NCBI RefSeq assembly: GCF_013410565.1
Contig: NZ_JACCFO010000001.1
Coordinates: forward strand, 5,208,001-5,272,000
Length of the DNA: 64,000 bases
Origin: Streptomonospora nanhaiensis
Lineage (GTDB): Bacteria; Actinomycetota; Actinomycetes; Streptosporangiales; Streptosporangiaceae
Direction: 5' to 3'
This document shows positions 12,081-48,616 of this stretch, piece by piece. A model generated the notes under the pieces. It was given only the letters and a program-made list of their open reading frames with translations. It was not told the origin of the DNA and made no database searches. Position 1 is the first letter of the stretch. Each line of letters starts with the position of its first letter. Both the position numbers and the translations under genes were made by a program.

Positions 12081-12086
12081 CGGCGC

Positions 12087-12124: not shown

Positions 12125-12172
12125 ACGCCCCGTGTTCCCTTCATCGCCCCCTCACGTGAGGACGGAACCGCC

Positions 12173-13732: not shown

Positions 13733-13817
13733 CCGGGCGCGCACCGGGCACGCACCAGGCGGGGGAGCGGGGCGGGGGCGCCGACGGGCAGGGCGGGCCC
13801 GGGCCGGCGCCCGGCCG

Positions 13818-14657: not shown

Positions 14658-14693
14658 GTTTATGCTATATATCATGTGTACGCCATAAACATG
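14655..14693. promoter_or_regulatory. Perfect inverted-repeat operator between TetR gene and beta-helix gene
   Basis: Exact 10-base arms CATGTTTATG (14655-14664) and CATAAACATG (14684-14693) flank an AT-rich 19-base core containing CTATATAT. One arm contains the TetR start codon and the other a possible ATG of the right-hand gene (14691). This arrangement is what a TetR dimer pair would bind to shut both promoters; transcripts may be leaderless. Confidence 0.72.
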
Positions 14694-14708
14694 AAAGTGT
14701 GGTGCGGC

Positions 14709-16424
14709 ATGACCAGGTATCGGTTCCACGTGTCCCCCGACGGCGACGACTCCGCCGAGGGCGGCCCCGACACCCCCTTCGCCACCCTGGAGCGGGCCCT
14801 GCACGCGGCCCGCACGGCCCCGGGCGGCGCGACCGTGCGGCTGAGAGCGGGCACCCACGTGCTCACCGAGCCCCTGGTGCTGACCGAGGAGGACTCCGGC
14901 ACCGCCTTCCGCGCCCACGGCGACGGGCCCGCCGTCATCAGCGGCGGCCGCCCGGTCACCGGGTGGCGGGAGAGCGGCGGCGTCTGGACCGCCGAGGTCG
15001 GCGCCCTGGACTTCCGCGAACTGTACGTCGACGGCCGCCGCGCCGAGCGCGCCGCCGTCGACGCCCTGCCCGAGGGCACCGTCCGCACCGAGACGGGATA
15101 CGCCACCCCGAGCACCGCGCCCCTGGCCTGGCGCGGCCCGGCGTCGGTGGAGTTCGTCTACCGCGGCGTCTACCCCTGGACCGAGGCCCGCTGCCCGGTC
15201 GCCGCCGTGGACCGCGAGGGCGACACCACGGTGATCACCATGGCCCAGCCCGCGTTCGCGCAGGCGGGCGACGTCTACAACTACGCGTATGACGGGTACA
15301 CCGGCTCCGGCCTGGAGTTGCCCACCCGGGTCGAGAACGACCCCGCCTTCCTCACCGAACCGGGCACCTTCGCCCTGGACCGCTCCCGCCCGGGCCGCCA
15401 CGTCCTGCACTACCTGCCCCGGCCCGGCGAGGACCCCGCCACCACCCGCGCGGTCGCCCCGGCGCTGCCGGTCCTGCTGCGCGTCGAGGGCGCCCGCGAC
15501 CTCGCCTTCGAGGGCCTGGTCCTCGCCGACGCCACCTGGCCGCGCGCCGGCGCCTTCCTGCACTACCACGGCACCGGCTACTACGACGGCGAGGGCGCGA
15601 TCGAGAAGGTGCCGATCACCGAGGGCGGGTCCTGGGTGACCGTCCCCGCGCGGACCAAGGCCATCCCCGCCTGCGTGGTCCTGGACGGCGCCACCGGTGT
15701 GCGGTTCGACGGCTGCCGATTCACCCGCCTGGGCGCCACCGCGCTGGCGGCGACCGGCGGCGCGGACCTCACCGTGCGCGGCTGCGACTTCGACACCATC
15801 TCCGCGGCCGGCGTCACGCTCGCGGGCACGCGCGGTGCGCTGCTGGAGGACAACCTGGTCCACCGCACCGGCCTGGACTACCCCGGCGCGCCGGGAATCA
15901 GCATCGGCGACACCACCGACTGCACCGTCACCCGCAACCACGTGGACGACGTGCCGCACTGCGGCATCTGCGCCTACACCGGGCGGGGCACCCGCATCAT
16001 TGGCAACCGGGTCACCAACTCCATGGGCGCGCTGGCCGACGGCGGGGGCATCTACGTCGCCGGCCCCCAGGGCGACTCCTGGCAGACCGGCGCCGTGGTC
16101 TCCGGCAACGTCGTCGCCGACACCCGCACGCCCTACAACTTCGGCCTCTACACCGATTACGGCGCGGCGTGGGTCCGGTGCGAGGAGAACGTGGTGACCC
16201 GCTCCGACAACACCGCGGTCCTGACCGTCGCCCCGCCGCTGGACCACGTGGCATACCGGGGCAACGTCTGGGACGCCGAGCCGGTGGGCGCCGACGCCGT
16301 GCCCGACGGGGTCGACTTCGCCGGCAACCTCCTCCTGGCCGGCGGCGACCCGTCGGCCGCCGCCGCGGCGGAGCGGATCTCCGCGAACGCCGGGCTGCTG
16401 CGCGAACGGCGGCCCGCCGCCTAG
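14709..16424 (+). CDS. Right-handed parallel beta-helix protein, GH141-like
   Basis: A 571-residue protein without a signal peptide. It begins with YRFHVSPDGDDSAEGG and FATLERALHAAR, typical of pectate-lyase-like beta-helix proteins. A segment FRELYVDGRRAERA (about 100) matches the N-terminal insert of GH141-type glycosidases. The C-terminal half (about 320-500) shows repeated coils such as VRFDGCRFTRLGATAL, LTVRGCDFDTISAAGV, ALLEDNLVHRTG and CTVTRNHVDDV. It may cleave a plant or microbial oligosaccharide inside the cell. It is controlled, by position, by the divergent TetR protein. The start could also be the in-frame ATG at 14691. A strong hairpin follows the stop. Confidence 0.8.
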   Translation: MTRYRFHVSPDGDDSAEGGPDTPFATLERALHAARTAPGGATVRLRAGTHVLTEPLVLTEEDSGTAFRAHGDGPAVISGGRPVTGWRESGGVWTAEVGALDFRELYVDGRRAERAAVDALPEGTVRTETGYATPSTAPLAWRGPASVEFVYRGVYPWTEARCPVAAVDREGDTTVITMAQPAFAQAGDVYNYAYDGYTGSGLELPTRVENDPAFLTEPGTFALDRSRPGRHVLHYLPRPGEDPATTRAVAPALPVLLRVEGARDLAFEGLVLADATWPRAGAFLHYHGTGYYDGEGAIEKVPITEGGSWVTVPARTKAIPACVVLDGATGVRFDGCRFTRLGATALAATGGADLTVRGCDFDTISAAGVTLAGTRGALLEDNLVHRTGLDYPGAPGISIGDTTDCTVTRNHVDDVPHCGICAYTGRGTRIIGNRVTNSMGALADGGGIYVAGPQGDSWQTGAVVSGNVVADTRTPYNFGLYTDYGAAWVRCEENVVTRSDNTAVLTVAPPLDHVAYRGNVWDAEPVGADAVPDGVDFAGNLLLAGGDPSAAAAAERISANAGLLRERRPAA

Positions 16425-16433
16425 CCGCACGCC

Positions 16434-16479
16434 GGCCCCCGCCCTCCCGCCCGGGCACCGGGGCGGGAGGGCGGGGGCC
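16434..16479. terminator. Perfect 19-base bidirectional hairpin
   Basis: Arms 16434-16452 and 16461-16479 are perfectly complementary around an eight-base loop, between the ends of the convergent beta-helix and serine hydrolase genes. This is the longest hairpin I see in the window. It has no U-tract. Confidence 0.8.
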
Positions 16480-16489
16480 GCGCGCCGCC

Positions 16490-18046
16490 TCACCGGCTCC
16501 GCGCACCCCTGCCCGAGCGGACCAGCGCGGCGACGCGGACCGCCACGACCGCCGCGCACGCGAGCGCGGCCGTGCCGAGGAAGAGCAGTTCGGCGGGCAC
16601 GGCGTAGAAGCGCGTCAGCCAGGAGGCGTCGCGCCCGCCCATCACGGTGTCGGCGAGCGGCTGGAAGACGGCCAGCAGGCCCGGCGGCACCAGGTAGGGC
16701 AGCAGCCGCGCCGCGGCCCGCCACCGCGGCCGCCGCACGCGGCGGGCCGCCCACGCCCCGGCGCGCAGCACCCCCCGCACCCCCAGGGCGGCCGTCAGCG
16801 CGGTGAGCACGCCGAACACGGCGTCGGTCCGCCACAGCGTGGAGCCGCCCTCCGGCGGCGTGCGCCCCTCGGCGAGCGCGAGCAGGCCCTCGGCCAGGCC
16901 GGAGGTGTCCTCCTCGGTCAGGGCCATCCCGCTGTTGAACAGCACCGCCACGCCGTACCCCGTCTCCGGCACCAGGAACTGGTAGGAGGAGTAGGTGGAC
17001 AGCATGCCGCCGTGCCAGACCTGCGGCAGCCGCGCGCGGTCGCCCGCCTCGGGCACCCGCCGCATCCAGCCCAGCGCCGAGCGGCCCTCGTTGGCCGAGG
17101 CGGTGTGGGTCTCGGCGACGCCCTCGGCCGACAGCAGCCGCTCGCCGGTGTCCGAGCGCCCCCCGTTGGCCTGCACCAGCAGCCACCGCGCCATGTCCTC
17201 GGCGGTGGAGACGATCCCGCCCGACCCGGCGGCGAACTGGTCGGGCTCGGGAACGGCGACGGCGGCCCCGTAGGCGCGGATGTGGCCGTCGGCCAGGCCG
17301 GGGACGGGCGCGCCCGTCGTCTCGGCCGCGGTGGTGTCGTCCATGCCGGCCGGGGCGAACACCTCCTGCTCCAGGTAGGCGTCGAACGGCCGCCCGGACA
17401 CCACCTCCACCAGGCGCGCGGCGACGTGGTAGTTGGGGTTGTGGTAGTTCCAGTCCGTACCCGGGTCGGCGGCCAGCCCGGCGGTGCGCAGCCGCGCCAC
17501 GGCCTCGCGCAGGGAGTCCGGCTGGCTGCGGGTGGCCTCGGGGAACGTCCGGTCGGACATGCCCGAGCTCTGGTCGAGCAGTTGGCGGACGGTGATGTCG
17601 GCCCCGCGCGGGTCGGCGAGGCGGAACTCCGGAAGGTAGGTCCGCACCGGCCGGTCCAGATCCACCCGGCCCGCCTCCACCAGCTGCATCACCGCCAGCG
17701 CGGTGAACGACTTGCTGAGCGAGGCGATGCGCATCGGCGTGTCCGCCCTCAGCGGGGCGCCGTCGGAGTCGTGGCCGTAGCCGGCGGTCAGCACCACCTC
17801 CTGGCCCCGGGTGACCGCGACGGCGGCGCCCGGCAGGCCGGTGCGCTCCACGTAGCGCTCGGCGAAGCGGTCCAGCTCCGCCGCGCCCGCCCCCGCCTCG
17901 TCGGCGAGCGCGGGGGCACCGGGTCCGGCGAACGCCCCCAGCAGGGCGAGCGCGGTCAGCGCGCCCGCCGCGGCCGCGCCGGGCAGCGTGCGGCGGCGGC
18001 GTCCTTCGGTGGTGCCCCGCCCGTGCCGGGGTCTGCTGGCCCGCAT
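16490..18046 (-). CDS. Membrane-anchored serine hydrolase, class C beta-lactamase/PBP fold
   Basis: A 518-residue protein with an N-terminal signal sequence (basic start, hydrophobic run near residues 22-45, ADEAG cleavage region). The catalytic domain (about 55-385) has the three family signatures: SxxK as SLSKS (about 112), YxN as YHN (about 200) and HxG as HGG (about 345). The C-terminal 130 residues contain about three to four membrane helices, so the catalytic domain is held outside the cell. Relatives act as D,D-peptidases, esterases or peptide hydrolases, and beta-lactam cleavage is not implied. It is divergent from the histidine kinase operon. Confidence 0.88.
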   Translation of the reverse strand: MRASRPRHGRGTTEGRRRRTLPGAAAAGALTALALLGAFAGPGAPALADEAGAGAAELDRFAERYVERTGLPGAAVAVTRGQEVVLTAGYGHDSDGAPLRADTPMRIASLSKSFTALAVMQLVEAGRVDLDRPVRTYLPEFRLADPRGADITVRQLLDQSSGMSDRTFPEATRSQPDSLREAVARLRTAGLAADPGTDWNYHNPNYHVAARLVEVVSGRPFDAYLEQEVFAPAGMDDTTAAETTGAPVPGLADGHIRAYGAAVAVPEPDQFAAGSGGIVSTAEDMARWLLVQANGGRSDTGERLLSAEGVAETHTASANEGRSALGWMRRVPEAGDRARLPQVWHGGMLSTYSSYQFLVPETGYGVAVLFNSGMALTEEDTSGLAEGLLALAEGRTPPEGGSTLWRTDAVFGVLTALTAALGVRGVLRAGAWAARRVRRPRWRAAARLLPYLVPPGLLAVFQPLADTVMGGRDASWLTRFYAVPAELLFLGTAALACAAVVAVRVAALVRSGRGARSR

Positions 18047-18142
18047 TCGTTCCTCCCAGGGAGTCGTCGGTCGTCCTGCCGGGCCACGCTAGGCAGCGGC
18101 GGGCCGCGCGGGCATCGCCCGCCGGTGGGCGGCGGGGGCGCC

Positions 18143-18185
18143 CGTTCGTGGCCGGCCGCGCGGGCCCGCCCCCCACGTTCGTGGC
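18143..18185. repeat. Pair of 10-base direct repeats upstream of the two-component genes
   Basis: CGTTCGTGGC occurs at 18143-18152 and again at 18176-18185, 33 bases apart (about three helical turns), in the space between the divergent serine hydrolase and histidine kinase genes. This could be a binding site, for example for the adjacent response regulator. Confidence 0.4.
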
Positions 18186-18245
18186 ACTCCCGGCCCGGCG
18201 GCCCCCCACTGAAGGGCGAGGACACGCGGCCGCGCTTCCAATACG

Positions 18246-19736
18246 GTGGACGCCGTGAACGTGATCACCGACCTCGCGGACGGCTCCCCGGCGGCCGCGC
18301 GCGCCGCGAAGGGGGCGGCCCCGCGCGAGGCCGCGCTGTGGGTGGTGTTCGCCGTCTGCGCGGTCCTGGCCGCCCTGCCCGCGGGGCAGGAGGTGCCGCT
18401 GCCGGCGCCCGCCCTGGGCGCGGCCGCGCTGCTGCTGGGCCGGGTGAGCGGCCGCGACACCTTGATGGCGGGCGCGCTCGCGCTCCTCACCGCCGGGTAC
18501 CCCGCGGTCGCGGTGCTGGGCGGGGCCACCGTGACCCACGGGTTCGTCGCGGCCGCCTCGGCGGTGGTCTTCGCCGTGCTGCCCTGGCTGCTGGGCCGCT
18601 ACCTGCGGCGCCGCGCCGAGGCGGCGTCCTTCGGCTGGCGGCGCGCCGAGCTGCTGGAGCGCGAGCACGACCTCGTGGCCGAGCGCGAGCGGCTGCGCGA
18701 GCGGGCCCGCATCGCCGAGGAGATGCACGACTCCCTGGGCCACGAGCTGAGCCTGATCGTGGTGCGCGCCGGGGCCATGCAGGTGGGGCCCGACTACGGC
18801 GAGGCCGAGCTGCGCGACGCCGCGGGGGAGCTGCGGGCCGGCGCGGCGGCGGCGGTGGAGCGGCTGCAGGAGATCATCGGCATCCTGCGGGAGACCGGCG
18901 ACCCGCTGGCGGGTGAGCCGCTGGGGCAGGGGGTCGGTGAGCTGGTCGACCGCGCGCGCGGCGCCGGCATGGACATCGGGCTGCGCGGCGGCGACCGGCT
19001 GGCGGACGCGCCCGAACCGGTGCGCCGGGCACTGGCCCGCGCCGTGCAGGAGGCGCTGACCAACGCCGCCAAGCACGCGCCGGGCGCGGCGGTGACCGTG
19101 CGCGTCGAGCGCGAGGCGGGCGTCGGCTGGGCGGTGCGGGTAGGCAACGGCCCCGCGCCCCGGGGCGGGCCGATCGGCGCGGGGGTCTCGGGCGGGCGCG
19201 GCCTGGCCGGGCTGGCCGAGCGGCTGCGCCCTCTGGGCGGCGCGGTCGAGGCCGGTCCGCGGGCCGACGGCGGGTTCGAGGTCTGGGCCCGCGTCCCGGC
19301 GGGCGCGGCCCCGGGCCGCGCGGGCGGTGCCGGCGCGGCCGAGCTGGCCTCGCGCTTCGCGGCGGCGCAGCGGCGCGCGCTGCGTGCGGCCGTGCTGGCC
19401 CCGGCGGCGCTGCTCGCCGCGCTGGCGGCGGTGTGGCTGGGCTACTACGGCTACGTGTCGGCCAACGCCGTTCTGGCGCCCGCGGAGTTCGACCGGCTGC
19501 GCGTGGGCCAGGAGCAGGCGCGGGTGGAGGCGGTGCTGCCGCCCATGTCGATGCTGGACCCGCCCGCAGAACGCGGCGGCGCGCCCGCCGGCGACGCGCG
19601 GTGCCGGTTCTACCGCTCGGAGCTGACGTGGCCGGGCGCGGCCACCACCGCCTACCGGCTGTGCTTCGCGGACGGCCGGCTCGCCGTGAAGGAGACCGTG
19701 CCGGTGGGCACCCGAACGGAAGGGGGAGCCCGGTGA
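18246..19736 (+). CDS. NarL-type sensor histidine kinase with extra C-terminal sensor-like tail
   Basis: A 496-residue kinase. Hydrophobic segments span about 30-118, then a coiled coil leads to the dimerisation/phosphoacceptor domain (HisKA_3), with ARIAEEMHDSLGHELSLIV and the acceptor His near 161. The ATPase domain (about 255-355) shows VQEALTNAAKHAPG and GRGLAGLAERLRPLGG. Unusually the protein does not end there: a further transmembrane helix (about 380-403) is followed by about 90 external residues with FDRLRVGQEQARVEAVLPP and two Cys, resembling a BamE/SmpA-like fold. Start codons GTG at 18246, 18255 and 18261 are all possible. It overlaps its response regulator by GTGA. Confidence 0.86.
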   Translation: MDAVNVITDLADGSPAAARAAKGAAPREAALWVVFAVCAVLAALPAGQEVPLPAPALGAAALLLGRVSGRDTLMAGALALLTAGYPAVAVLGGATVTHGFVAAASAVVFAVLPWLLGRYLRRRAEAASFGWRRAELLEREHDLVAERERLRERARIAEEMHDSLGHELSLIVVRAGAMQVGPDYGEAELRDAAGELRAGAAAAVERLQEIIGILRETGDPLAGEPLGQGVGELVDRARGAGMDIGLRGGDRLADAPEPVRRALARAVQEALTNAAKHAPGAAVTVRVEREAGVGWAVRVGNGPAPRGGPIGAGVSGGRGLAGLAERLRPLGGAVEAGPRADGGFEVWARVPAGAAPGRAGGAGAAELASRFAAAQRRALRAAVLAPAALLAALAAVWLGYYGYVSANAVLAPAEFDRLRVGQEQARVEAVLPPMSMLDPPAERGGAPAGDARCRFYRSELTWPGAATTAYRLCFADGRLAVKETVPVGTRTEGGAR

Positions 19737-21701: not shown

Positions 21702-22538
21702 TCACGGGCCCTTGGGCGCCGGGGTGCCGGGGATCCGCACCGCCGCGATCTGCGTGGCCTGGGCGACCAGGCGGCCCTTGGCGTCCCACACGTGCGCGGC
21801 CAGGTCCATGGTCCCCGCGCCCACGTCGGTGGCCCGCAGCCGGGTGCGCAGCGCGCCCGGCGCGGGCGGCCGCCGCACGTAGGCGCTGAACTGGATCGTC
21901 GGCGCCCAGCCCGCGATGCCCAGGTCGAGGGTGGCCGAGGGGATCGGGTCCAGGGCGACCAGCACGCTGAGCGGGTCCCAGGCCGCCCCGTCGGCCAGGC
22001 GCTGCCAGCCCAGGACGAGCCCGCGGCCCGAGGGCCGGCCGGCCGTGAACCCCAGCAGGCCGGGGTCCAGGCGGTGCTCGACCACCGACAGCAGCGGCGC
22101 GCTCAGCCCCAATTCGGGGACCTCCGGTGGCGCCAGGAAGCAGTCCCGCTCCGCGGGCAGCTCCACGGGTTCGGCGGCGGACCACCAGGCGTCGCCGTCC
22201 TCCAGAGCGCCCTGGGTGATCAGGCACTCGACCTTGGGACGGCCGTCCTGGAGCAGGCGGGCGCGCAGCTGGGTGGAGGTGCGCCCCACCCGCAGCACCT
22301 CCACCTCGGCGACCGCGCCGCCGGGGGCGGCGGCCTCCAGGAACGACGCGCTCACCGCGGTCAGGCGCGGGCGGTCGCCGGCGGCCTCGGCCGCCGCCCG
22401 GCCCAGGACCGCGAGCAGGTAGCCGCCGTGCGGCTTGCCGCCGACGCTCCAGCGCGGGTCCAGGGCGGCGCCGAACTCCCGCACCGGGCCGCCGGTGCCG
22501 CGCGGGCAAACCTCGGTGGCCGTGCTGAAATCACTCAT
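21702..22538 (-). CDS. Acyl-CoA/acyl-ACP thioesterase, double hotdog (TesB-like)
   Basis: A 278-residue protein of the thioesterase superfamily with two hotdog halves. The first half holds PRWSVGGKPHGGYLLAVLGR (about 28-47) and LTAVSASFLEAAAPGG, the second IPSATLDLGIAGWAPTIQF (about 200-218), both typical of TesB-like or acyl-CoA thioesterase II-like proteins. It starts inside the end of the catalase-flavin-ACP gene (8-base overlap) with a good AAAGGA site, so it is the third gene of that operon. Its most likely job is to release the modified acyl chain from the carrier domain, or to edit misloaded chains. Confidence 0.86.
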   Translation of the reverse strand: MSDFSTATEVCPRGTGGPVREFGAALDPRWSVGGKPHGGYLLAVLGRAAAEAAGDRPRLTAVSASFLEAAAPGGAVAEVEVLRVGRTSTQLRARLLQDGRPKVECLITQGALEDGDAWWSAAEPVELPAERDCFLAPPEVPELGLSAPLLSVVEHRLDPGLLGFTAGRPSGRGLVLGWQRLADGAAWDPLSVLVALDPIPSATLDLGIAGWAPTIQFSAYVRRPPAPGALRTRLRATDVGAGTMDLAAHVWDAKGRLVAQATQIAAVRIPGTPAPKGP

Positions 22539-25293
22539 GGGGGATCCTTTCGGGAACGGTCGGTCCGGACTCCTCGTGGCCGGAGGCGGTCCGGGCGTGG
22601 GGAGCCGCCGCGGGGCCGCCCACGAGCCCGGCCAGGTGGAGCGCCACCGCCTCGACGGTGGGCAGCTCCAGCAGCAGGGTGGGCGAAACCCGGAACCCGA
22701 GCCACTCCGACAGCTCGCCCTGCACGCCCGCGACGGCGAGCGAGTCCACCAGGTAGTCGTCCAGGGGCGCCCGGGGGTCCACCGGCCCTCCCGCCTCCTC
22801 GGCGACGCGCGCCAGCAGCCAGTCCCGGATCTCGGCGGCGCCCCGGACCGCCACCGGGCGCGGCGGCGCGGCGGCGGGCTTGGCCCACGCGGCCGCCCCG
22901 CCCGCCGCCGCGCGCCTCTCGGCGCCGCCGGTCTGCGGGGCGTCCGGGAAGAACCGCCCGACGAGGTCGCGGGCGTGGGCGACGGCGGTCTCGACCAGTT
23001 CGTAGCCGAGCAGGCCGCCGGTGTAGTAGGTCCGGGCGCGGCCCTGCATGCCCTCGAACCGCGCGAGCGCGCCGTCGGCGAGGTCGGCGCCGGAGAAGTG
23101 CGGCATAAACGGCCACCGGCGCACCAGCAGGACCTCCTCGACCCGCCCGCCCAGCCGGGCGACGTCGGCCGCCACCCGGGCGCGGACCCCCGCCTCACCG
23201 AGTCCCTCGGCGCCGTAGAGGTAGCCGGTGTAGACGTCGGCGCCGGCGTGGCGGTGGTGGTAGGCCACCAGGTGCCCCGGCTCGGCCGCGGCGGCGGTGT
23301 GCTCGCCGACCAGGTAGAAGCCCTCGCGGAGCAGGCCCGAGGCCCGGAACACCGCGGTGCGGTAGTCGACCGTGCGGATCCGCGCCGCGAGGTCGCGCTC
23401 CTCGTCGGTGGCGTCGAGCAGGTGCACCACCCGGTCCAGGGCCGGGGTGAGGACCAGCGCGTCCGCGCGCACCGGCCCGCCGTCGGTGTACACCGCGACC
23501 CCCGCGCCGGTGCGCTCGACCGCGCGGACGCGCACCCCCGTCCGCACGTCGGCGAGGTCGCGGGCCACGCGCCGCCACAGCCGCGCGAACCCGTCGCGGA
23601 CGGTGAAGGCGCCCGCGTGGCCGGTCGGCGCCGGCCCGGCCGACAGCAGGCCGGTCAGCTCGGCGTATTTGACGAAGTACAGCGCGGGCAGGTCGCCGCG
23701 CAGGTGGCCGTAGCCCGAGGCGGTGTAGCCGTCGCCCAGGGAGGCGGCCATGGCCGTCAGGCCGTTGCCGCGCAGCCACTCGGCCACGGGCCGGGCCAGG
23801 TGCGCGGCCGAGTGGGCCAGGCCGGGTTGCCGGATGCCGGGGAAGAGCTCGGCGCGCAGCCGGGTGTAGCGCGCGAACGCCTCGGGGCGGAAGAACGCGG
23901 CGTCGGGGCGGCGGGCCGCCGGCCGGCCGGGGCCGTGGACGCGGGTGGGCGTGGCGTCCTCGGTCTCAACGCCCAGGTCGGCGGCGAGCCGGGCGACCTC
24001 GGCGTACTCGGGGGTGCAGATGTGGGCGCCGAGGTCGTAGGCGCGGCCCTCCACGCGGACGGAGACCGACTTCCCGCCGACCTCGGGCGCGCGCTCCAGC
24101 ACCACGGCGCGGTGGCCCCGCAGCTCCAGTTCGCGGGCGGCCGCCAGCCCGGCCGGGCCCGCGCCGAGTACGCACACGGTCAGCCGCCGGGGGCCGCGCC
24201 CGTTCGCGGCGGGCGGGGCGGGCGGGGCGGGCGCGCGGGTGCGGGCGGCGTGCGCCGCGCGGTAGACCAGCGCCCGGACGTGGTTGACCGAGGCGGCCTC
24301 GTGCGGTGACCGGGCCAGCGCGATGCCCAGGCCCTCGGGAGCCAGTGCCGGGTCGAACAGCAGCCCCTCGGCGACCGCGCCGTCGAGCGGGGCGTCGAAC
24401 CGCAGTTCGGCGAGGGTGCGGTAGGGGTGCGCGGGCTCCGGCCACAGCCGCGCGGGGTCGAGCGCCGCGCGGTTGGCCGCCGGGTCGGCGCCCAGGGGAT
24501 GCAGTTGGACCTGCAGGAGGACGCGGAAGCCGCCGTCCGCCACGTCGGCGCGCAGCGCGTCGCTGAGCAGGGTGGGCGGCCGGTCGTCGCCGGGCGCGCG
24601 GCGCGGGGACCGGGGCGGCGCCGCCGGCGGCGGGTGGCCGCCGGGGTCGTGGTGGCCGGCGTCGGGCGCGCCCGAGGCGGGGACGGCGCGGTAGCGGGCC
24701 AGCCACGGGCGGCCCGCGCCGTCGACGTAGGGGCGCGGCACCTGCGAGTGGTAGTGGTAGCGGGGGTAGGCCACGGGGTCGCGGACCTGCTCCCACACGG
24801 CCGCGCGCAGGCCGGGGTCCTCGCGGGCCATGGCCTCCCGGTCGGCGTCGGTGCCGAAGGTGAAGCGGTGGAAGTGGGCGGCGCTGCGCGCGAACAGGCG
24901 GCGCCCGGTGTTCAGGGTGAGGGCGAACACGGCGCGGCCGGGGTCGCCGGGGTGCGCGGGGTCGCAGAAGAGCAGGGAGAGCCCCCGGGTGCCCGGCAGC
25001 ACCTCGTCGGCCCGCTCGCCGCTGCTGTAGCGGGCCAGCACCGGCACGCGCGCGCCGGAGGCGAAGAACGGGTGCGGCTCGGGGCCGCCGGGCGCCGGGG
25101 CGGCCACCGCCTCGCCCCGCACCGCGGCGGCGTCGGCGTGGAAGAAGCGCCGGCGGGTGCGGTGGGAGGACCGGACCATCACCTCGAAGCGGGTGAGGAG
25201 CGCGGCCAGACCGGGGCCGTGGTCGTGGAGGGCGGGGTCGTCGGGGCCGGCCGAGAAGCGCAGGCCGGGGGCCCCGGCGGGGCCGCCGCTCAC
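22531..25293 (-). CDS. Three-domain fusion: catalase-like heme domain, PAI-like flavin domain, acyl carrier domain
   Basis: A 920-residue fusion. Residues about 20-350 resemble small catalases/allene oxide synthases: candidate distal His52 in RRRFFHAD, Asn128, a LDPARLWPEPAHPYRTL stretch, and the proximal RxxxY motif as RALVY (Arg340, Tyr344). Residues about 370-800 are an amine-oxidase-type FAD domain (VCVLGAGPAGLAAAREL, EVGGKS) whose pattern, including GYGHLRGDLPALYFVKYAE, LVAYHHRHA and RFEGMQGRARTYYTGG, resembles the Propionibacterium polyenoic fatty acid isomerase as I remember it. Residues about 825-890 are a carrier domain with the phosphopantetheine serine near 851 in DDYLVDSLAV. The GTG start overlaps the FAAL stop. 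It probably modifies an acyl chain held on its own carrier. Confidence 0.83.
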   Translation of the reverse strand: MSGGPAGAPGLRFSAGPDDPALHDHGPGLAALLTRFEVMVRSSHRTRRRFFHADAAAVRGEAVAAPAPGGPEPHPFFASGARVPVLARYSSGERADEVLPGTRGLSLLFCDPAHPGDPGRAVFALTLNTGRRLFARSAAHFHRFTFGTDADREAMAREDPGLRAAVWEQVRDPVAYPRYHYHSQVPRPYVDGAGRPWLARYRAVPASGAPDAGHHDPGGHPPPAAPPRSPRRAPGDDRPPTLLSDALRADVADGGFRVLLQVQLHPLGADPAANRAALDPARLWPEPAHPYRTLAELRFDAPLDGAVAEGLLFDPALAPEGLGIALARSPHEAASVNHVRALVYRAAHAARTRAPAPPAPPAANGRGPRRLTVCVLGAGPAGLAAARELELRGHRAVVLERAPEVGGKSVSVRVEGRAYDLGAHICTPEYAEVARLAADLGVETEDATPTRVHGPGRPAARRPDAAFFRPEAFARYTRLRAELFPGIRQPGLAHSAAHLARPVAEWLRGNGLTAMAASLGDGYTASGYGHLRGDLPALYFVKYAELTGLLSAGPAPTGHAGAFTVRDGFARLWRRVARDLADVRTGVRVRAVERTGAGVAVYTDGGPVRADALVLTPALDRVVHLLDATDEERDLAARIRTVDYRTAVFRASGLLREGFYLVGEHTAAAAEPGHLVAYHHRHAGADVYTGYLYGAEGLGEAGVRARVAADVARLGGRVEEVLLVRRWPFMPHFSGADLADGALARFEGMQGRARTYYTGGLLGYELVETAVAHARDLVGRFFPDAPQTGGAERRAAAGGAAAWAKPAAAPPRPVAVRGAAEIRDWLLARVAEEAGGPVDPRAPLDDYLVDSLAVAGVQGELSEWLGFRVSPTLLLELPTVEAVALHLAGLVGGPAAAPHARTASGHEESGPTVPERIPHE

Positions 25294-27077
25294 CGCCCCA
25301 CCGCCGCGGCGCCGGCCGCGGCCGCGCCGTCCAGGTAGGCCGCCCGGCAGGCGCTGCGGCGGATCTTGCCGCTGGTGGTCTTGAGCACCAGGCCGCGGCC
25401 GCCCACGACCACGTCGTCGCAGGGGATGCCGTGGGCGTCGGCCACCGCGCGGCGGACCGCGCGCACCAGGGCGGCCGCGTCCTCGGCGGAGGGCTCCACG
25501 GTGGTCTCGACCAGGACCACCAGGCGCTCGCCCGCCGCCGCATCCTCCTCGGCGGGCACCGCGAACGCCGCGACGCCGCCGGAGCGGACGAGGGGGTGGC
25601 AGCCGCGGACGGTGTCCTCGATGTCCTGGGGATAGTGGTTGTGGCCCCGGACTATGATCATGTCCTTGAGCCGGCCCGTGACGAACAGCTCCCCCTCGTG
25701 GAGGAACCCGAGGTCGCCGGTGCGCAGGTACTCCCGGGGGTCGCCGTCTGCCGTGCGCGCCGCGAACACCTCGCGGGTGTGGTCGGGCAGGCCCCAGTAC
25801 CCGCGGGCCTTGGTCGCGGAGTCGGCCCAGATCTCGCCCACGCGGCCGGGCCCGCACGGCAGGCGGGTCTGCGGGTCGACCACGCGCAGGCGGGCGCCAG
25901 GCTTGGTGACGGTGCCGCAGCCGTAGTAGGAGGCGGCGGGCCGCGCCGGGTCGTCGCCGACGGGCACGGCGCGGCCGAGCCTGATGGCGTCGGGGTCGAC
26001 GCGCAGCGGGCCGCTGCCGCCCATCGTGAGGCTGAGGGTGTGCTCGGCCAGGCCGTAGGTGGGGTAGAACGCCTCGGGCGGGAAGCGGGCCTCGGCGAAG
26101 GCGGCCAGGAAGCGCTCGACCGTGGCGGGCCGGATCAGCTCGCCCGAGGACCCCACCACCCGCAGCGACGACAGGTCCCAGGAGGCCCGCTGTTCGGCGG
26201 CGGTCTTGCGCACGACGAGGTCGAACGCGAAGTTGGGGGCGGCGGTGTGCGTGGCGCGCACCCGCGAGGCCACCTCGAACCACACGGCGGGGCGGCGCAG
26301 GAAGCTCAGCGGGGACAGCACGTGGGTGCGCGCGGAGTGCCCGACGAGGGTGTTGAGCAGGAAGCTGACGAGTCCGAGGTCGTGGAAGTGCGGGACCCAG
26401 GTGACCGCGACGGTGTCGTCGCCGAGGTCGAGGTCGCGGGCGATGGAGTCCAGTTCGTGGTGGATGTTGCGGTGGCTGACGACCACGCCCTTGGGGGCGC
26501 CGGTGGAGCCGGAGGTGTACTGGAGGAACGCGGGGGAGTCCAGGTCGGCGGGCTCGTGCCAGCGGCCGAGGTCGGGGGCGTGGGCGGGCACCGGGCCGGG
26601 GCGGTCGGTGTCGGCCCAGGGGAGGTCGGGCCAGGCGGGGGCGCCGGGGGCGGACCGCCGGGCGTGCCGGCCGGCGGCGAGCAGGTCGCGGTAGGGGGTG
26701 TGGGTCAGCACGAGGTCGGCGCCCGAGCTCGCGGCGACGGCCGCGAGCACCCCGATGTCGCGCCCGGGCTTGAACGGGTTGGGGGGCGCGACCGGCACCG
26801 GCACGAGTCCCGCGGCCTGGCAGCCCAGGAACGCGCTGACGAAGTCGAGGGAGGGCAGGTGCACCAGGAGGGCGCGGGCGCCGGGGGCGAGGCCGCGCCC
26901 GGCCAGGTCGGCCCGGATGCGCTCGGCCTCCCAGGCCAGGCGGCGCACCGTCATGGTGTCGACGTCGCGGCCGTCGTCGTCGGTGAAGACGAGAAGTCCG
27001 CGGTCGGGGACGCGGTCGTGCAGCTCCCGGAAGCGCGCCGCGACGGATCGCTCGCCGCCGGCCTTGGTGTGGTCCAC
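25290..27077 (-). CDS. Fatty-acyl-AMP ligase (FAAL)
   Basis: A 595-residue adenylating enzyme of the FAAL type, which activates free fatty acids and loads them onto a carrier protein rather than CoA. Motifs: LQYTSGSTGAPKGVVVSHRN (A3, about 176-195), FYPTYGLAEHTL (A5), and the FAAL-typical YLRTGDLGFLHEGELFVTGR with KDMIIVRGHNHYPQDIE. The C-terminal catalytic lysine is present in TTSGKIRRSACR. The GTG start follows GGAAGGAGA. It is the first gene of a leftward operon, and its stop overlaps the start of the fusion protein that carries the cognate carrier domain. A perfect 7-base-arm palindrome at 27159-27179 lies about 80 bases upstream. Confidence 0.93.
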   Translation of the reverse strand: MDHTKAGGERSVAARFRELHDRVPDRGLLVFTDDDGRDVDTMTVRRLAWEAERIRADLAGRGLAPGARALLVHLPSLDFVSAFLGCQAAGLVPVPVAPPNPFKPGRDIGVLAAVAASSGADLVLTHTPYRDLLAAGRHARRSAPGAPAWPDLPWADTDRPGPVPAHAPDLGRWHEPADLDSPAFLQYTSGSTGAPKGVVVSHRNIHHELDSIARDLDLGDDTVAVTWVPHFHDLGLVSFLLNTLVGHSARTHVLSPLSFLRRPAVWFEVASRVRATHTAAPNFAFDLVVRKTAAEQRASWDLSSLRVVGSSGELIRPATVERFLAAFAEARFPPEAFYPTYGLAEHTLSLTMGGSGPLRVDPDAIRLGRAVPVGDDPARPAASYYGCGTVTKPGARLRVVDPQTRLPCGPGRVGEIWADSATKARGYWGLPDHTREVFAARTADGDPREYLRTGDLGFLHEGELFVTGRLKDMIIVRGHNHYPQDIEDTVRGCHPLVRSGGVAAFAVPAEEDAAAGERLVVLVETTVEPSAEDAAALVRAVRRAVADAHGIPCDDVVVGGRGLVLKTTSGKIRRSACRAAYLDGAAAAGAAAVGR

Positions 27078-27850: not shown

Positions 27851-29077
27851 ATGACCGAGACGACCGAGACCGCCACCGCGCCCCGTCCGCAGTACCCCTT
27901 CAGCTCCCGGGGGGACTGCCTCGCGCCCGAACTCGACGACCTGCGCGGCGAGTGCCCCGTCGTCCCCGCCCTCAGCAACGCCGGTGAGGACGTCTGGCTC
28001 GTCACCGGCCACGCCGAGGCCCGCGCGGTGCTGACCGACTCCCGCGTCTTCGACCGCGCGGCGGTGGGGCTGCCGGACGCCCCCGTCCAGGACACCCCCA
28101 TCTACGCGCCCGAGGTCATGAACACCATGGGTTTCCTGCGCCGGGCCGGCCTCGCCGACGAGGTCCGGCGCGCCCTGGGCCCCGAGCACCCCGACCTGCC
28201 CGAGGAGTGGGTGCGCGCGGTGGTCCGCCGCGAACTGGCGGCCATGCTCGCCGGCCCCCAGCCCGGCGACCTCCAGCACCACCTGGCCACCCGGGTCTCG
28301 GGCGAGGTCATGTGCCGGCTGCTGGGCATCCCGCTCGCCGACCTCCCGCGGGTGGCCGAGTTCGCCGACGGCGACGTCACCATGCTGGTGCCCGCCGAGC
28401 AGACCGCGCGCAACTGGGCCGGGATGCAGAGCCACATGGCCGGGCTGATCGCCCAGGTCCGCGACGGTACGGCGGCGTCCGCCCGGATCCCCGCCGACGG
28501 CCTCATGCAGCGCCTGGTCGCGCGCAACGACCCCGACCGCGGCCTGACCACCGGCCAGCTGGCCAACATCGTGGGCGGGCTGTTCGTCCTGGGCTACGAG
28601 GACATGACGAGCTTCCTGGGCGTGGGCGCCCACAACCTGCTGCGCCGCCCCTGGGCCCTGGAGGAGCTGCGCGCCGACCCCGCCACCGCCGACCGCCACA
28701 TCGAGGAGCTGCTGCGCTTCAGCGTGGTCCTGGGCAACGCCCTGGCCCGCATCGTCACCACCGACACCGAGATCGCCGGCCGCCGCCTGCGCGCCGGCGA
28801 CATGGTCCTGATCTCCACCGACGCCGCCAACCACGACCCGGAGGTCTTCCCCGACCCCCACCGCTACGACCCCCGGCGCAGTCCCAACCCCCACATCCGC
28901 TTCGGCCACGGCCCCCACTACTGCGCGGGCGCCCACCTGGCCCGCTGGGTCGCCCGCATCGCCTTCACCGAACTGTCCCACCACCGCGACCTCCGCCTCG
29001 CGGTCCCCCCCGAACAACTCGAATGGCGCCCCAACCACATGGCCATCACCCTGGCCGCTCTGCCCGTCCGCTGGTAG
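27851..29077 (+). CDS. Cytochrome P450 with atypical I-helix
   Basis: A 408-residue soluble bacterial P450. The heme-binding loop is FGHGPHYCAGAHLAR with the thiolate at Cys358, the K-helix ExxR is E286-LL-R289, and the PERF-like region lies near 330-345. Two parts are unusual. The I-helix acid-alcohol motif (normally AGxETT) reads LGYEDMTS around 247-254, so Asp replaces the usual Thr. The C-helix lacks the normal His/Trp-xxx-Arg pattern and instead has a segment around 90-120 rich in charged residues. Such changes are seen in P450s that use peroxide or act on carrier-bound substrates. It is divergent from the FAAL operon and may belong to the same pathway. A strong hairpin follows. Confidence 0.9.
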   Translation: MTETTETATAPRPQYPFSSRGDCLAPELDDLRGECPVVPALSNAGEDVWLVTGHAEARAVLTDSRVFDRAAVGLPDAPVQDTPIYAPEVMNTMGFLRRAGLADEVRRALGPEHPDLPEEWVRAVVRRELAAMLAGPQPGDLQHHLATRVSGEVMCRLLGIPLADLPRVAEFADGDVTMLVPAEQTARNWAGMQSHMAGLIAQVRDGTAASARIPADGLMQRLVARNDPDRGLTTGQLANIVGGLFVLGYEDMTSFLGVGAHNLLRRPWALEELRADPATADRHIEELLRFSVVLGNALARIVTTDTEIAGRRLRAGDMVLISTDAANHDPEVFPDPHRYDPRRSPNPHIRFGHGPHYCAGAHLARWVARIAFTELSHHRDLRLAVPPEQLEWRPNHMAITLAALPVRW

Positions 29078-29308: not shown

Positions 29309-30040
29309 ATGCTCGACGAATCCTGGCAACCTCCGGCCGTCCTGGTGGCGGTCGACCTGGTCATTCTGACCCTGCGTTCCGAACGCCTCCACGTCTTGCT
29401 TGTGGAGCGCGGTATCGAGCCTTTCAGGGGCCACCACGCCCTCCCCGGCGGCTTTCTCAACAACGCCGGCGAGGACGTGCTCGCCGCCGCCCATCGTGAA
29501 CTCCGCGAGGAGGCGAACCTCGAGGGGGCGCGGCTGCACCTGGAGCAGTTGGGTGCCTACGGCGCGCCCGACCGGGACCCGCGCGGCCGGGTCGTTTCAG
29601 TCGCCTACCTGGCCATTGCGCCTGGGCTCCCCGAACCTGTCGCCGGTACCGACGCGGCGGGAGCCTCCTGGAGACCCGTCGAGGACGTCAGTTCGGGGCG
29701 TGTGAGACTGGCGTTCGACCATCGGCAGATTCTCGCTGACGGGGTGGAGCGCGCCCGCGCGAAAATCGAGCATTCCTCCCTTGCGACCGCCTTTTGCGGT
29801 GAAACCTTCACGGTCGCGGAATTGCAGCGTGTCTATGAGGCTGTCTGGGGGGTCCGGCTCGACCAGCGGAACTTCTATCGAAAGATCCAGGGTGTGCCCG
29901 GATTCATCGTTCCGGCGGGACCGAACCGCCGAACGACGAAGGGGCGGCCCGCACGACTCTTCCGGGCCGGGCCGCGGAACGCGCTGCACCCACCGCTGGT
30001 CCGCCCCGGTTCTCCGGCGACGAACGAGGGGAATCAGTGA
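29309..30040 (+). CDS. NrtR-like NUDIX-winged helix regulator
   Basis: A 243-residue protein with an N-terminal NUDIX domain (about 8-140) and a C-terminal winged helix (about 150-225), the layout of NrtR-type regulators that sense ADP-ribose or related NAD metabolites. The NUDIX box reads GGFLNNAGEDVLAAAHRELR followed by EEANL. It has one residue more than the usual GX5EX7REXXEE spacing between the glycine and first glutamate, so hydrolysis may be impaired. The winged helix contains FTVAELQRVYEAVWGVRLDQ and RNFYRKIQGVPGF, matching NrtR. It is the first gene of a three-gene unit joined by GTGA overlaps; the palindrome at 29271-29295 is its likely operator. Confidence 0.87.
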   Translation: MLDESWQPPAVLVAVDLVILTLRSERLHVLLVERGIEPFRGHHALPGGFLNNAGEDVLAAAHRELREEANLEGARLHLEQLGAYGAPDRDPRGRVVSVAYLAIAPGLPEPVAGTDAAGASWRPVEDVSSGRVRLAFDHRQILADGVERARAKIEHSSLATAFCGETFTVAELQRVYEAVWGVRLDQRNFYRKIQGVPGFIVPAGPNRRTTKGRPARLFRAGPRNALHPPLVRPGSPATNEGNQ

Positions 30041-31185
30041 AAGACAACCTGGTGGTCATGCTCACCGCTCTCAACCTCGAGTACGAGGCGGTGTGGCGCA
30101 AACTGGTTGGTCCGGAGGTGCACCGCCACGAACGGGGAACGCGTTTCGAGGTCGGCACTTTAGCGGGCACGAAATGCCGGGTCGCCCTGGGGCTCACCGG
30201 AAAGGGGAACCACCCGGCCGCCGTGCTGGCCGAACGCGCCATCCAGCGGTTCTCGCCGGTGGCCGTCCTCTTCGTCGGTGTGGCGGGTGCGCTGTGGGAC
30301 GCCACGCCGCTCGGCGACGTCGTGATGGCAACGCACGTCTACGCCTATCACGGCGGCACAAGCGAGGACGACGGGCTCAAGGCCCGTCCGCGGGTGTGGG
30401 AGCTGGCACACGAGATCAGCCAGGTCGCCGCCCACGTGGGACGGACCGGCGACTGGGCGCCCCCGGCGGAACCCGGCCACCGTCCGCCCAGGGTCCACTT
30501 CGGCGCGATCGCGGCGGGCGAGATCGTGCAGAACTCACGGATCTCCCACGAGGCGCGCTGGATCCGCAAGACGTACAACGACGCCCTGGCGATTGAGATG
30601 GAGGCCGCCGGTGTGGCGCAGGCCGGGCATCTCAACGGATCACCGGTCGCGATCGTGCGAGGTATCAGCGACAGGGCCGATGGAACCAAGTCAACGGACG
30701 GGGACGGGACCTGGCAGCCGCGTGCGGCGGCGAACGCCGCGGCGTTCGCCGCCCGGCTCGCCGCAGAACTGACCAAGGATCAGGAGCGTCGCGGTATGGA
30801 TGACGGCACATTCGGCGAGAAGGGCGGCGGCGTCACCAACTACGCCTTCGGCCAGGTGGGTATTCAGGCCGGTCAGGTCACCGGGAGCAGGGTCTCCATG
30901 GGCGCGGACCTTTCCGGACCGGAGCCGGCCGACCTCGCCGCCGGGCTCGCGGCGTTCCGCGACGACCTGGTGCGCGAACGCTCGGCCGGCAGGATCGACG
31001 GGGCGACGTACGACGCCGCGCAGGCGGAGATCGATATCGCGAGCAAGGCCTTGGCGGACAGCACGCCGGAGGGAAAGGGCGCGTTCGTCCTCGCCCTCAA
31101 GCGGCTGCGGGGCCTTATCGGAGACGTCGCCGAACTGGCGGCGAAGGTGGCGGCTTTCATCGCGGCAGCGCAGGGAGTCTCGTGA
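30037..31185 (+). CDS. Purine nucleoside phosphorylase/MTAN-like effector with RHIM-like motif
   Basis: A 382-residue two-part protein. Residues 1-245 form a nucleoside phosphorylase/5'-methylthioadenosine nucleosidase fold: VLFVGVAGALWDATPLGDVV near 77-96, the nucleoside-binding IEMEAAGVAQAG (Glu189) and the catalytic Asp212 in GISDRAD. Residues about 263-290 hold a glycine-rich motif, NYAFGQVGIQAGQVTGSRV, whose GIQAG core resembles RHIM or bacterial amyloid signalling motifs. The last 90 residues are helical (DLAAGLAAFRDDLVRERSAG and beyond). Such phosphorylase domains are known effectors in NLR-like immune systems, probably destroying purine nucleosides or NAD-like pools. The next gene carries a matching motif at its N-terminus. 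Both starts are GTGA overlaps. Confidence 0.82.
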   Translation: MKDNLVVMLTALNLEYEAVWRKLVGPEVHRHERGTRFEVGTLAGTKCRVALGLTGKGNHPAAVLAERAIQRFSPVAVLFVGVAGALWDATPLGDVVMATHVYAYHGGTSEDDGLKARPRVWELAHEISQVAAHVGRTGDWAPPAEPGHRPPRVHFGAIAAGEIVQNSRISHEARWIRKTYNDALAIEMEAAGVAQAGHLNGSPVAIVRGISDRADGTKSTDGDGTWQPRAAANAAAFAARLAAELTKDQERRGMDDGTFGEKGGGVTNYAFGQVGIQAGQVTGSRVSMGADLSGPEPADLAAGLAAFRDDLVRERSAGRIDGATYDAAQAEIDIASKALADSTPEGKGAFVLALKRLRGLIGDVAELAAKVAAFIAAAQGVS

Positions 31186-33161
31186 ACGAGTCGGCCGTCA
31201 ACAACACGACCGGAGAGAACGCCAACGTCGGCATCCAGGCCGGAGCGGTACACAACTCGACGGTGTACCAGGTTCTTCCCGACTCGCCGCCCTCGCGGAA
31301 GTACCAGGTCGGAGTGCGCTTCTTGGAGAACGGGGCGCCCACTCGGGCCCGCGGCCTGATCGAGGAGGCCATCGCCCACGGACACGACGGCGGTGAGGTG
31401 CGCTTCCACTGGGTCCTGGCCATGCTCAGCAAACGCTCCTATCGGGACCTCGCCCCCGAGGAGCGGGCGGCGTTGGGCCGCGTCTCGGGCCGTGTGCACA
31501 CTTACGCCGCGGACGACTGGAGACGCGCGCTGAAGGCCATCTGCGATCTCCTCGACTGCCTGTCCGACTCCGGCGGCGATCCCGGACTGGCACTCAAGGA
31601 ACTGCAGAACCTCCCCGCACTCCAGCGCGACAAGATCATTCGGCATCTCGACCTGGTCCTGACTGGAGGAATGAAGGACAGTCTGTGGGTCCAGACGCGC
31701 CAAGCGGCGGAGGAGAACAGGCTGGGCAGGGACCGCCTCAAGCGGGTGTGGGCGTACTTCGAGCCCGACCCGGCGGGCGCCCGGGCGCGCCACCCCGAAG
31801 GGAGCCGCGCCACTCCCGGAGACCGCCTTTGTGCCGTGGCGTGGTCCGTGCTGTTCACGCTGGCGGCCGGGTACATGGGCTGGTCCGTCCTCACCCATGC
31901 GGGCCTGGTGCCCGACCTCGCCTATCTCGTCGCCCTGGCGGCCGGAGTGATCGCGGCGCGAAGCGGGATGGAGTGGCACTACCGGGTGGGGAGACTGAGG
32001 GACAAGGACCTCGAGTACATCGAGACCAGGCGGAACTCCCGTGCTCCCGAAGGCGGATTCGCCAACCGCGTCGACCACGCGTTCGAGTACTACTTCACCA
32101 AGTACGCTCCCGACCGCCGAGCGGCGTGGCTTGCGGAGACCGCCGGAATCCGCGGCACCCTGCGGGATGAGGTCGCCGAGATCTACCGAGAGGAAAGGGT
32201 CAGCGCAGACAAGGTCAGGTGGCTGATCCGCCACCTGGTCCGCGATGTCCGAAGGCGGTGGCTGGCCGGAAGGCTCCTGGAGCACCGGGCGTACTACAAG
32301 GTCACCGCTACCACCAAGGCGCGGTTCCTGGCCTCCTCAGCGGCCCTGGCGGCGGCGGCCGTCAGCGTCGCCGTCGCGACGGTCCAGGAGGCGCCACTGC
32401 CCGGCGCCGCCGCGGTGGCGGCCGCGGTGGTGGGCGCGCGGTTCGCCGCGCCGCTGTGGCTGCTGGTCTTCGGCGAACGCCGACGCGTCGTCGAGGACGA
32501 GGCGGAGTACTCGCTCACCCTGGCGGAACGGGAGGAAGAGCACGCGAGGTGGAAGGCGAAGCTCGAAACCACCCGCCCCTCCGAGATGGAGATGGAGGAG
32601 TGGCTGAACTGCGACAAGACATTGATTCTCGATAGGGCGCTGCGGCACTACCGACTGGCGTGGCGCGACATCCTCGCCTACGCGCTCTTGCAGACGCCTG
32701 CCAAGGGCTGCAAGCGGGCACAGTTGCAGTCAGGCCCCTGGCGCTACTCGAAGTACGAAATAAGGATTTACCTGGTCACCCACGACGGAGTCCGTGAGGT
32801 GACCACGGAACTCGACTTCGAAAAGGCCGAAACCATGGGGCAGGAACGCGACAACTTCCGGTTCGAGTCGGTCTCGTCGGTCCACGTCTCCGAGTCCGAC
32901 GATCACAGCTACACCTTGAACCTCACCCTCATGAACGGCCCCGCCAAGGAAATCCTGGTCACGGGCCCAAACGCGCAGGAGCCCGACGCCGGGGAAAGCC
33001 CCGGCGAACAGTCCCAGGTCAACCTCGACGCGGCCGGGTTCGGTCACACGCTCCGGATCCTCGAGGGTATTGCCGCTGAGGGCAAAATGTGGATCGGCCG
33101 AGCCCAGCCCCCAAGCGCGTCCGATGATCCGTTCGCCAAGGCCGAAGTCGGGAGTGGCTAG
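31182..33161 (+). CDS. Four-helix membrane protein with N-terminal RHIM-like motif
   Basis: A 659-residue protein with no named family that I recognise. The N-terminus (about 8-30) reads NTTGENANVGIQAGAVHNST, sharing VGIQAGxV with the upstream nucleosidase. Residues 35-195 are helical and TPR-like in appearance. Two membrane hairpins follow: about 217-236 with 242-260, and 381-402 with 407-430. Between them is a charged helical region, and after them (about 470-600) a mixed segment with EIRIYLVTHDGVREVTTELD. The layout suits a membrane-acting effector or anchor triggered through motif-motif contact with the nucleosidase. Codon and base composition are slightly less GC-rich than in flanking housekeeping genes. 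Confidence 0.72.
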   Translation: MNESAVNNTTGENANVGIQAGAVHNSTVYQVLPDSPPSRKYQVGVRFLENGAPTRARGLIEEAIAHGHDGGEVRFHWVLAMLSKRSYRDLAPEERAALGRVSGRVHTYAADDWRRALKAICDLLDCLSDSGGDPGLALKELQNLPALQRDKIIRHLDLVLTGGMKDSLWVQTRQAAEENRLGRDRLKRVWAYFEPDPAGARARHPEGSRATPGDRLCAVAWSVLFTLAAGYMGWSVLTHAGLVPDLAYLVALAAGVIAARSGMEWHYRVGRLRDKDLEYIETRRNSRAPEGGFANRVDHAFEYYFTKYAPDRRAAWLAETAGIRGTLRDEVAEIYREERVSADKVRWLIRHLVRDVRRRWLAGRLLEHRAYYKVTATTKARFLASSAALAAAAVSVAVATVQEAPLPGAAAVAAAVVGARFAAPLWLLVFGERRRVVEDEAEYSLTLAEREEEHARWKAKLETTRPSEMEMEEWLNCDKTLILDRALRHYRLAWRDILAYALLQTPAKGCKRAQLQSGPWRYSKYEIRIYLVTHDGVREVTTELDFEKAETMGQERDNFRFESVSSVHVSESDDHSYTLNLTLMNGPAKEILVTGPNAQEPDAGESPGEQSQVNLDAAGFGHTLRILEGIAAEGKMWIGRAQPPSASDDPFAKAEVGSG

Positions 33162-44860: not shown

Positions 44861-48616
<3,756 letters not shown>

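Follow-up and report, generated by a model that had tools for sequence, protein, structure and literature searches.

A fatty acyl-AMP ligase beside a heme-flavin-acyl carrier fusion in Streptomonospora nanhaiensis: a candidate carrier-based route to oxidised fatty acids

Three overlapping genes of Streptomonospora nanhaiensis encode, on balance probably, a small assembly line in which an unsaturated fatty acid would be oxidised and rearranged on a carrier to give an oxylipin. They lie on the reverse strand at positions 21702-27077 of a stretch of 64,000 nucleotides (hereafter the window), which covers positions 5,208,001 to 5,272,000 of contig NZ_JACCFO010000001.1 (C1, assembly GCF_013410565.1) in a genome of 6.28 Mb. 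The first encodes a fatty acyl-AMP ligase (FAAL) and the last a hotdog thioesterase; between them stands a fusion protein that joins a catalase-related heme domain resembling coral allene oxide synthase (AOS), an FAD domain resembling polyenoic fatty acid isomerase (PAI) and an acyl carrier protein (ACP) domain (Table 1). This reading is built on the domains and their order, on conserved residues of catalytic type, on the co-occurrence of FAAL and fusion, and on a polyunsaturated fatty acid (PUFA) synthase neighbourhood in two other genomes, all established at the level of sequence. The FAAL and fusion genes, with a PUFA synthase beside them in two relatives, suggest that bacteria have a so far undescribed pathway to oxidised lipids, in a gene group that is rare and actinobacterial.

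Domain architecture of the unit

All three genes were located where the original prediction, made from the letters of the window, had placed them, with overlaps of 4 bases between FAAL stop and fusion start (GTGA at 25290-25293) and of 8 bases between fusion stop and thioesterase start (ATGAGTGA at 22531-22538). GC content at codon positions 1/2/3 of the fusion gene is 0.83/0.58/0.97. Differences from Streptomonospora mangrovi at the same positions amount to 0.107/0.107/0.205 in the AOS domain, 0.100/0.095/0.176 in the PAI domain, 0.165/0.139/0.367 in the ACP, 0.055/0.061/0.167 in the FAAL and 0.090/0.072/0.187 in the thioesterase, which argues that the genes of the locus are not there by chance. 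A chance fusion or a frameshift artefact was ruled out by the identical domain order in seven genomes. The motifs that the original prediction had named in the fusion were likewise all present: His52, RALVY (340-344), GYGH (527-530), KY (542-543), EGMQGR (747-752), TYYTG (755-759) and DSL (850-852).

The N-terminal part had been described as catalase-like, and it does match catalase-fold enzymes, best of all coral AOS, by sequence, profile and Foldseek. In a phmmer search of the fusion against the PDB, residues 46-348 matched coral AOS (1u5u, E 3.8e-17), second after the isomerase structure 2b9w considered below. A profile of nine AOS-type domains, seven of them fused and two lone (one in genome G484 and a second copy in Lentzea), found 1u5u at 6.3e-45, then 3e4w, which belongs to the mycobacterial catalase-related protein 3e4w/3e4y, at 1.5e-14; no true catalase scored better than 7.4e-9. 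A model of the heme domain (pLDDT 59.5, pTM 0.69) also had 1u5u as its top Foldseek match (E 2.3e-14, query TM 0.66, rmsd 7.6, the model being modest), and the full-length fusion model (pLDDT 53.3) was too poor for use; the identity of the heme domain stands on the sequence matches even when the model is set aside. No Pfam family matched this part up to E 1, and the Pfam catalase model (PF00199) found three other catalases in the genome, the fusion gene not being among them. A plain catalase or detoxifier was therefore ruled out, since PF00199 misses the domain and coral AOS is far closer.

The nearest solved relative of residues 46-348 is thus the AOS part of the Plexaura homomalla AOS-lipoxygenase fusion (1u5u/3dy5), with which they share the distal His and Asn and the proximal Arg/Tyr positions. 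Arg and Tyr of the proximal motif are kept in all nine AOS-type sequences, and the distal His and Asn in eight of the nine, the window protein having both. The two systems differ in their partners, the coral domain being joined to a lipoxygenase and the present one to a flavin domain and an ACP, and in residues around the substrate. According to PMC5617202, the substrate hydroperoxide meets T66, H67 and N137 in coral AOS, Thr66 is catalytically important, and the substrate carboxylate could be coordinated by K107 and/or K60. Here Phe takes the place of Thr66 and the carboxylate lysines are absent: no AOS-type row out of nine has lysine at the K60 or K107 position (the former falls one residue beyond the local alignment, with a gap in one row and Arg in three). 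This absence would fit a substrate held as a thioester, although the absence of a residue is weak evidence.

The flavin domain follows PAI, as the original prediction had proposed from its motifs. Its match to 2b9w over residues 373-782 (E 3e-35) was the top match of the whole fusion in the PDB, and a profile of the seven flavin domains gave 2.9e-53 for 2b9w and 7.1e-23 for the next solved flavoenzyme, so that PAI is the best among solved flavoenzymes. The PDB record of 2b9w reads "putative aminooxidase"; we take it to be the PAI of Propionibacterium acnes, which makes that enzyme the nearest solved relative across the entire flavin domain, at about 28% identity over 389 mapped pairs. The domain falls in the amine-oxidase superfamily (PF01593), and its next solved relatives after PAI are amine oxidases; an amine oxidase as its identity was rejected, since the match to PAI is stronger by some 30 orders of magnitude. 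Of the residues that presumably form the active site of PAI (Arg88, Phe168 and Phe193), Arg88 pairs with Arg451, next to a gap and with Leu in Streptomyces carminius, and the fusion differs at the other two, Phe168 pairing with Ser526 and Phe193 with Ala552. Known PAI is a free single-domain enzyme acting on free fatty acids, whereas the flavin domain here is fused and sits beside a carrier.

The ligase is nearer to FAALs than to acyl-CoA ligases in both NCBIfam and the PDB. Its best NCBIfam models are fatty-acid--AMP ligases, with E down to 4e-106 and scores below cut-off (none of the 25 models shown reaches its own), and its solved relatives include FadD32, FadD23 and FadD28. The intact lysine that had been claimed for it was borne out by a TTSGK motif in all seven aligned FAALs, and by its sequence the enzyme should adenylate a free fatty acid and load the fused carrier. 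In that carrier the serine is kept in seven of seven aligned domains, ESM replacing DSL in Lentzea, and PF00550 was found at E<=1e-4 in six of the seven fusions. Two matches to the phosphopantetheinyl transferase family in the window genome could prime the ACP. The thioesterase carries Pfam 4HBT_3 and 4HBT_3C, its sole solved relative at E<=0.01 being 3bbj, "Putative thioesterase II" (E 1.1e-24).

Distribution of the unit and its link to PUFA synthases

Among the genomes searched, a FAAL followed by AOS-PAI-ACP in the same order was found in seven: that of the window, S. mangrovi (G003; L024/L031), Actinorugispora endophytica (L029/L032), G043 (L030), Streptomyces carminius (L033), Lentzea sp. 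NBRC 105346 (L034) and G514 (L052). Pairwise identities of AOS, PAI and FAAL correlate with r 0.90-0.95 over these genomes (21 non-independent pairs), as expected of one inherited unit. Comparative genomics, put forward with the original prediction as a check on the three-gene unit, thus showed FAAL and fusion kept throughout and the separate 4HBT_3 thioesterase after the fusion in three (window, S. mangrovi and A. endophytica). In Lentzea and G514 the ACP is directly followed, within the same chain, by a PF00975 thioesterase, and two 4HBT proteins flank the FAAL/fusion pair in S. carminius. For G043, no thioesterase was found in the 20 kb locus by likeness to the window's enzyme, other kinds of thioesterase not being sought.

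The unit is sparse. Searches for the AOS domain, whose counts are lower bounds (part of each genome's first-look candidates was scored), were positive for at least 4 of 150 genomes sampled from the window's family and at least 1 of 246 sampled from its phylum (the window's own genome); samples of the Lentzea and S. carminius families gave at least 3 of 249, G484 being among them, and at least 1 of 297 (S. carminius itself), respectively; two of the six genomes listed as own or same genus were positive, namely the window's and S. mangrovi. On these lower-bound counts, fixation of the unit in the genus or family was rejected. A scan of genome contigs, from which records near the window were possibly left out, yielded 362 pattern stretches and 4 confirmed loci, two of them in G003 and G054. 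Plasmids gave merely distant partial matches in 8 records (the NGR234, Photobacterium and Nostoc neighbourhoods were inspected without outcome), and viral contigs gave nothing useful. Besides the fusions there are two lone AOS-type genes, in G484 (L053) and as a second copy in Lentzea (L054). The former (L053:8297-10972) is convergent with a cytochrome P450 gene, and no PAI-, ACP- or FAAL-like match was seen within the 20 kb viewed around it.

In two of the seven genomes the unit adjoins genes of the bacterial PUFA synthases (pfa, secondary lipid synthases), PfaD, PfaA and a PfaBC-like gene. On one contig of Lentzea, PfaD (10965-12602; 630.7 bits, cut-off 449.25), PfaA (12613-19464; 1602.9, cut-off 1010.1) and a PfaBC-like gene with FabA domains (about 19.4-26.3 kb) precede the FAAL and the fusion, with a divergent FAD gene between; the fusion (L034:8004-12596) is there a single frame of 1531 residues, AOS-PAI-ACP-thioesterase-P450. 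In G514 the order along one strand is FAAL, AOS-PAI-ACP-thioesterase, PfaD (631.4), PfaA (1133.7) and a PfaBC-like protein, PfaD and PfaA both scoring above the curated cut-offs; the fusion stop overlaps the PfaD start (tgATGa), and stop and start codons of FAAL and fusion overlap too. These two linked clusters are, from sequence, the strongest pointer to a polyunsaturated substrate that we infer. No class was claimed for the synthases: a first pfaD and a fused BC agree with Type L of the PUFA-synthase survey, but the acyltransferase precedes the best-scoring FabA stretch. The word catalase is absent from the accessible main texts of the pfa cluster survey (PMC3098273) and of two papers on PUFA-synthase mining (PMC13291983, PMC12964715).

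Proposed pathway and alternative explanations

In the pathway that we propose, the FAAL would adenylate a free (poly)unsaturated fatty acid and attach it, through the phosphopantetheine arm, to the ACP of the fusion, where the PAI-like flavin domain would move or conjugate a double bond of the bound chain. The heme domain would either rearrange an oxygenated bound chain (a hydroperoxide, as in coral AOS) or oxygenate the chain with peroxide. Release would fall to the separate hotdog enzyme in Streptomonospora and Actinorugispora and to the fused type-I thioesterase in Lentzea and G514, and a P450 probably adds or handles oxygen in some members. We infer here the loading, the PUFA-type substrate, isomerisation and heme rearrangement on the carrier, the order of the steps, the oxidant, the release and the product. 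The on-carrier reading of the original prediction gains from the PUFA synthase beside the unit and the thioesterase fused behind the ACP in two of the seven genomes. Its description of the operon as self-contained is not supported, the unit encoding neither a source of unsaturated acid nor one of hydroperoxide or another oxidant; some genomes seem to include a P450 in the unit, and the separate thioesterase was seen in the three genomes named above. More tentatively, the Lentzea/G514 neighbourhood might represent a full oxylipin route, in which PUFA synthesis and carrier capture would be followed by isomerisation, heme-catalysed rearrangement (giving an allene oxide, a cyclopentenone or a comparable product) and release, a single polypeptide being responsible for these three later steps; Streptomonospora might then have kept the tailoring half, fed by acquired or desaturase-made fatty acids.

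Several observations weigh against a carrier-based oxylipin pathway. The structural models are poor for the full length and modest for the heme domain (pLDDT 53.3 and 59.5; rmsd 7.6 to 1u5u). The coral Thr66 position is Phe in eight of nine rows, Phe51 in the window protein, and Met in one. In the fusion of G043 (L030:9224-12088, reverse strand) the proximal Arg/Tyr are kept and the distal His and Asn positions hold Tyr and Ser, so that this member perhaps carries out a different reaction. The ACP of S. mangrovi has no Pfam listing at E<=1e-4, its DSL serine being present nonetheless. The PUFA synthase linkage is found in only two of seven genomes, and none of the other five, the window's included, has a PfaA above cut-off among 16 scored candidates each; in this search the control genomes gave matches below cut-off only and Lentzea alone lay above it. 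The substrate in the window genome must come from elsewhere, and this genome, which has two fatty-acid-desaturase matches, could take up fatty acids from outside; such matches occur in all seven fusion-bearing genomes and do not discriminate. Lentzea has a second PfaA-type locus above cut-off on another contig (C2), and the neighbourhood alone therefore does not tie the substrate. Finally, no lipoxygenase match was found in the eight genomes searched, a result that is uninformative as control genomes were silent too.

The same lack of a lipoxygenase, with its silent controls, would suit a coupled oxidase and peroxide user, which we regard as possible but rather improbable. Here the flavin domain would oxidise the bound chain and make H2O2, and the catalase-fold domain would destroy this peroxide or act as a peroxygenase, so that no outside hydroperoxide would be needed. 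Membership of PF01593, the amine oxidases that come next among solved relatives, and a distal His/Asn pair kept in eight of nine rows where the AOS threonine is not, are all compatible with such chemistry. Against this alternative stand the profile scores: PAI clearly outranks every solved oxidase as a match for the flavin domain (2.9e-53 vs 7.1e-23), as coral AOS does every solved catalase for the heme domain (6.3e-45 vs 7.4e-9).

Two further alternatives were considered. As in FAAL-initiated lipopeptides, the modified acyl group might be passed as a starter unit to a polyketide or peptide synthase instead of being released; FAALs often begin such assembly lines (PMC11837247), and lipopeptides linked to a PUFA synthase exist (PMC12964715). 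We hold this to be unlikely, given the thioesterase behind the ACP in the same chain (two genomes) or the separate 4HBT_3 enzyme beside the fusion (three), and given that no ketosynthase or condensation domain is listed in the 19 window proteins scanned around the unit. Very unlikely, in our view, is a housekeeping role in which toxic lipid hydroperoxides or odd unsaturated fatty acids would be cleared without a dedicated product. In its favour are the catalase fold and the surroundings of a distant relative on the rhizobial plasmid pNGR234a, where a di-heme peroxidase and a patatin-like phospholipase are encoded nearby. Bulk detoxification would, however, hardly explain the presence of a FAAL and of a dedicated ACP, and the sparse distribution and the PUFA synthase linkage in two genomes also speak against it.

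The neighbouring cytochrome P450

The divergent P450 gene, which the original prediction had not mentioned, recurs next to the unit in S. mangrovi (80% identity), with differences of 0.131/0.086/0.148 at codon positions 1/2/3, a sign of weaker constraint than in the other genes. A P450 accompanies the fusion in three of the seven genomes (window, S. mangrovi and Lentzea) and also stands next to the lone G484 gene; a comparison with the window's P450 gave no match in the 17-20 kb loci of the four remaining fusion genomes. As a constant member of the unit it was therefore rejected. The Lentzea P450, fused in the chain, shares 26% identity with the window's, and the four P450s compared share 26-36% outside the Streptomonospora pair. 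Their I-helices read GYEDM (window) and GYADL (S. mangrovi) vs GLETT/GHETT (Lentzea/G484): the usual acid-alcohol pair is absent from the two Streptomonospora enzymes and the heme cysteine region is retained. Loss of this pair occurs among P450s that work with peroxides in place of O2, and the window P450 is possibly such an enzyme, the altered I-helix being a hint of peroxide chemistry and no more.

Relation to known systems

Each part of the unit has a known relative, and what appears to be new is their combination in one chain. To our knowledge, the catalase-fold enzymes of fatty-acid metabolism and PAI have been described with free fatty acids as substrates, and we know of none acting on a carrier-bound chain. 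Modification of FAAL-loaded fatty acids on a carrier is already known from the jamaicamide type (JamA and relatives; PMC11837247). In such FAAL-ACP-desaturase starter modules, according to the same source, a FAAL likewise loads a fatty acid on a dedicated ACP, where an enzyme acts on the tethered chain; unlike there, the modifying enzymes here are a heme and a flavin domain in one protein with the ACP, and release by a thioesterase is suggested. In agreement with the original prediction, which knew of no described pathway with the architecture of the fusion, no description of a single chain that combines a coral-AOS-like heme domain with a PAI-like domain and a carrier was found among the titles and abstract openings listed in searches of open-access literature, and the accessible parts of PMC5617202, PMC3098273, PMC11837247, PMC11719350, PMC12964715 and PMC4210621 do not mention it. 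If the proposed pathway is true, Actinobacteria would possess their own version of the prostanoid chemistry of corals or the jasmonate chemistry of plants, carried out on a carrier-tethered chain. Seven gene sets are available for its study, and the neighbouring PUFA source in two of them suggests which substrate to consider.

Table 1. Features of the unit and of the adjacent P450 gene, in window positions.
Feature	Position	Strand	Basis
FAAL, 595 aa	25290..27077	-	PF00501 E 1.2e-55, NCBIfam FAAL models, TTSGK motif
Three-domain fusion (catalase-related heme / PAI-like FAD / acyl carrier), 920 aa	22531..25293	-	
Heme domain, residues 1-352, coral AOS-like	24238..25293	-	1u5u sequence, profile and Foldseek matches
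His52, pairs with distal His67 of coral AOS	25138..25140	-	alignment
Asn128, pairs with distal Asn137 of coral AOS	24910..24912	-	alignment
Arg340...Tyr344 (RALVY), proximal heme-ligand motif	24262..24276	-	pairs with coral Arg349/Tyr353
FAD domain, residues 373-782, PAI-like	22948..24177	-	2b9w match
Acyl carrier domain, residues 825-887	22633..22821	-	PF00550 E 6e-9
Ser851 (DSL), expected phosphopantetheine site	22741..22743	-	motif, serine conservation
Hotdog acyl thioesterase (4HBT_3/4HBT_3C), 278 aa	21702..22538	-	Pfam
Cytochrome P450, divergent neighbour, possible pathway member	27851..29077	+	PF00067 E 4.4e-21

Other features of the window

At 29309-33161 on the forward strand lie genes for a NUDIX/NrtR-type regulator, a protein with a nucleoside-phosphorylase domain, which matches the PADLOC effector model PN-superfamily (E 7e-19), and a protein of 659 aa to which no Pfam family matches; these possibly form a conflict- or defence-type set. 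Within a histidine-kinase gene, ARAGORN called a tRNA at 19196-19297 (forward strand) whose amino acid is undefined and whose anticodon has four bases; this call is probably spurious. Cobalamin-related genes, for a CobN-type chelatase, a CobO-type adenosyltransferase and the cobalt transport protein CbiQ, are found at 44606-63255.

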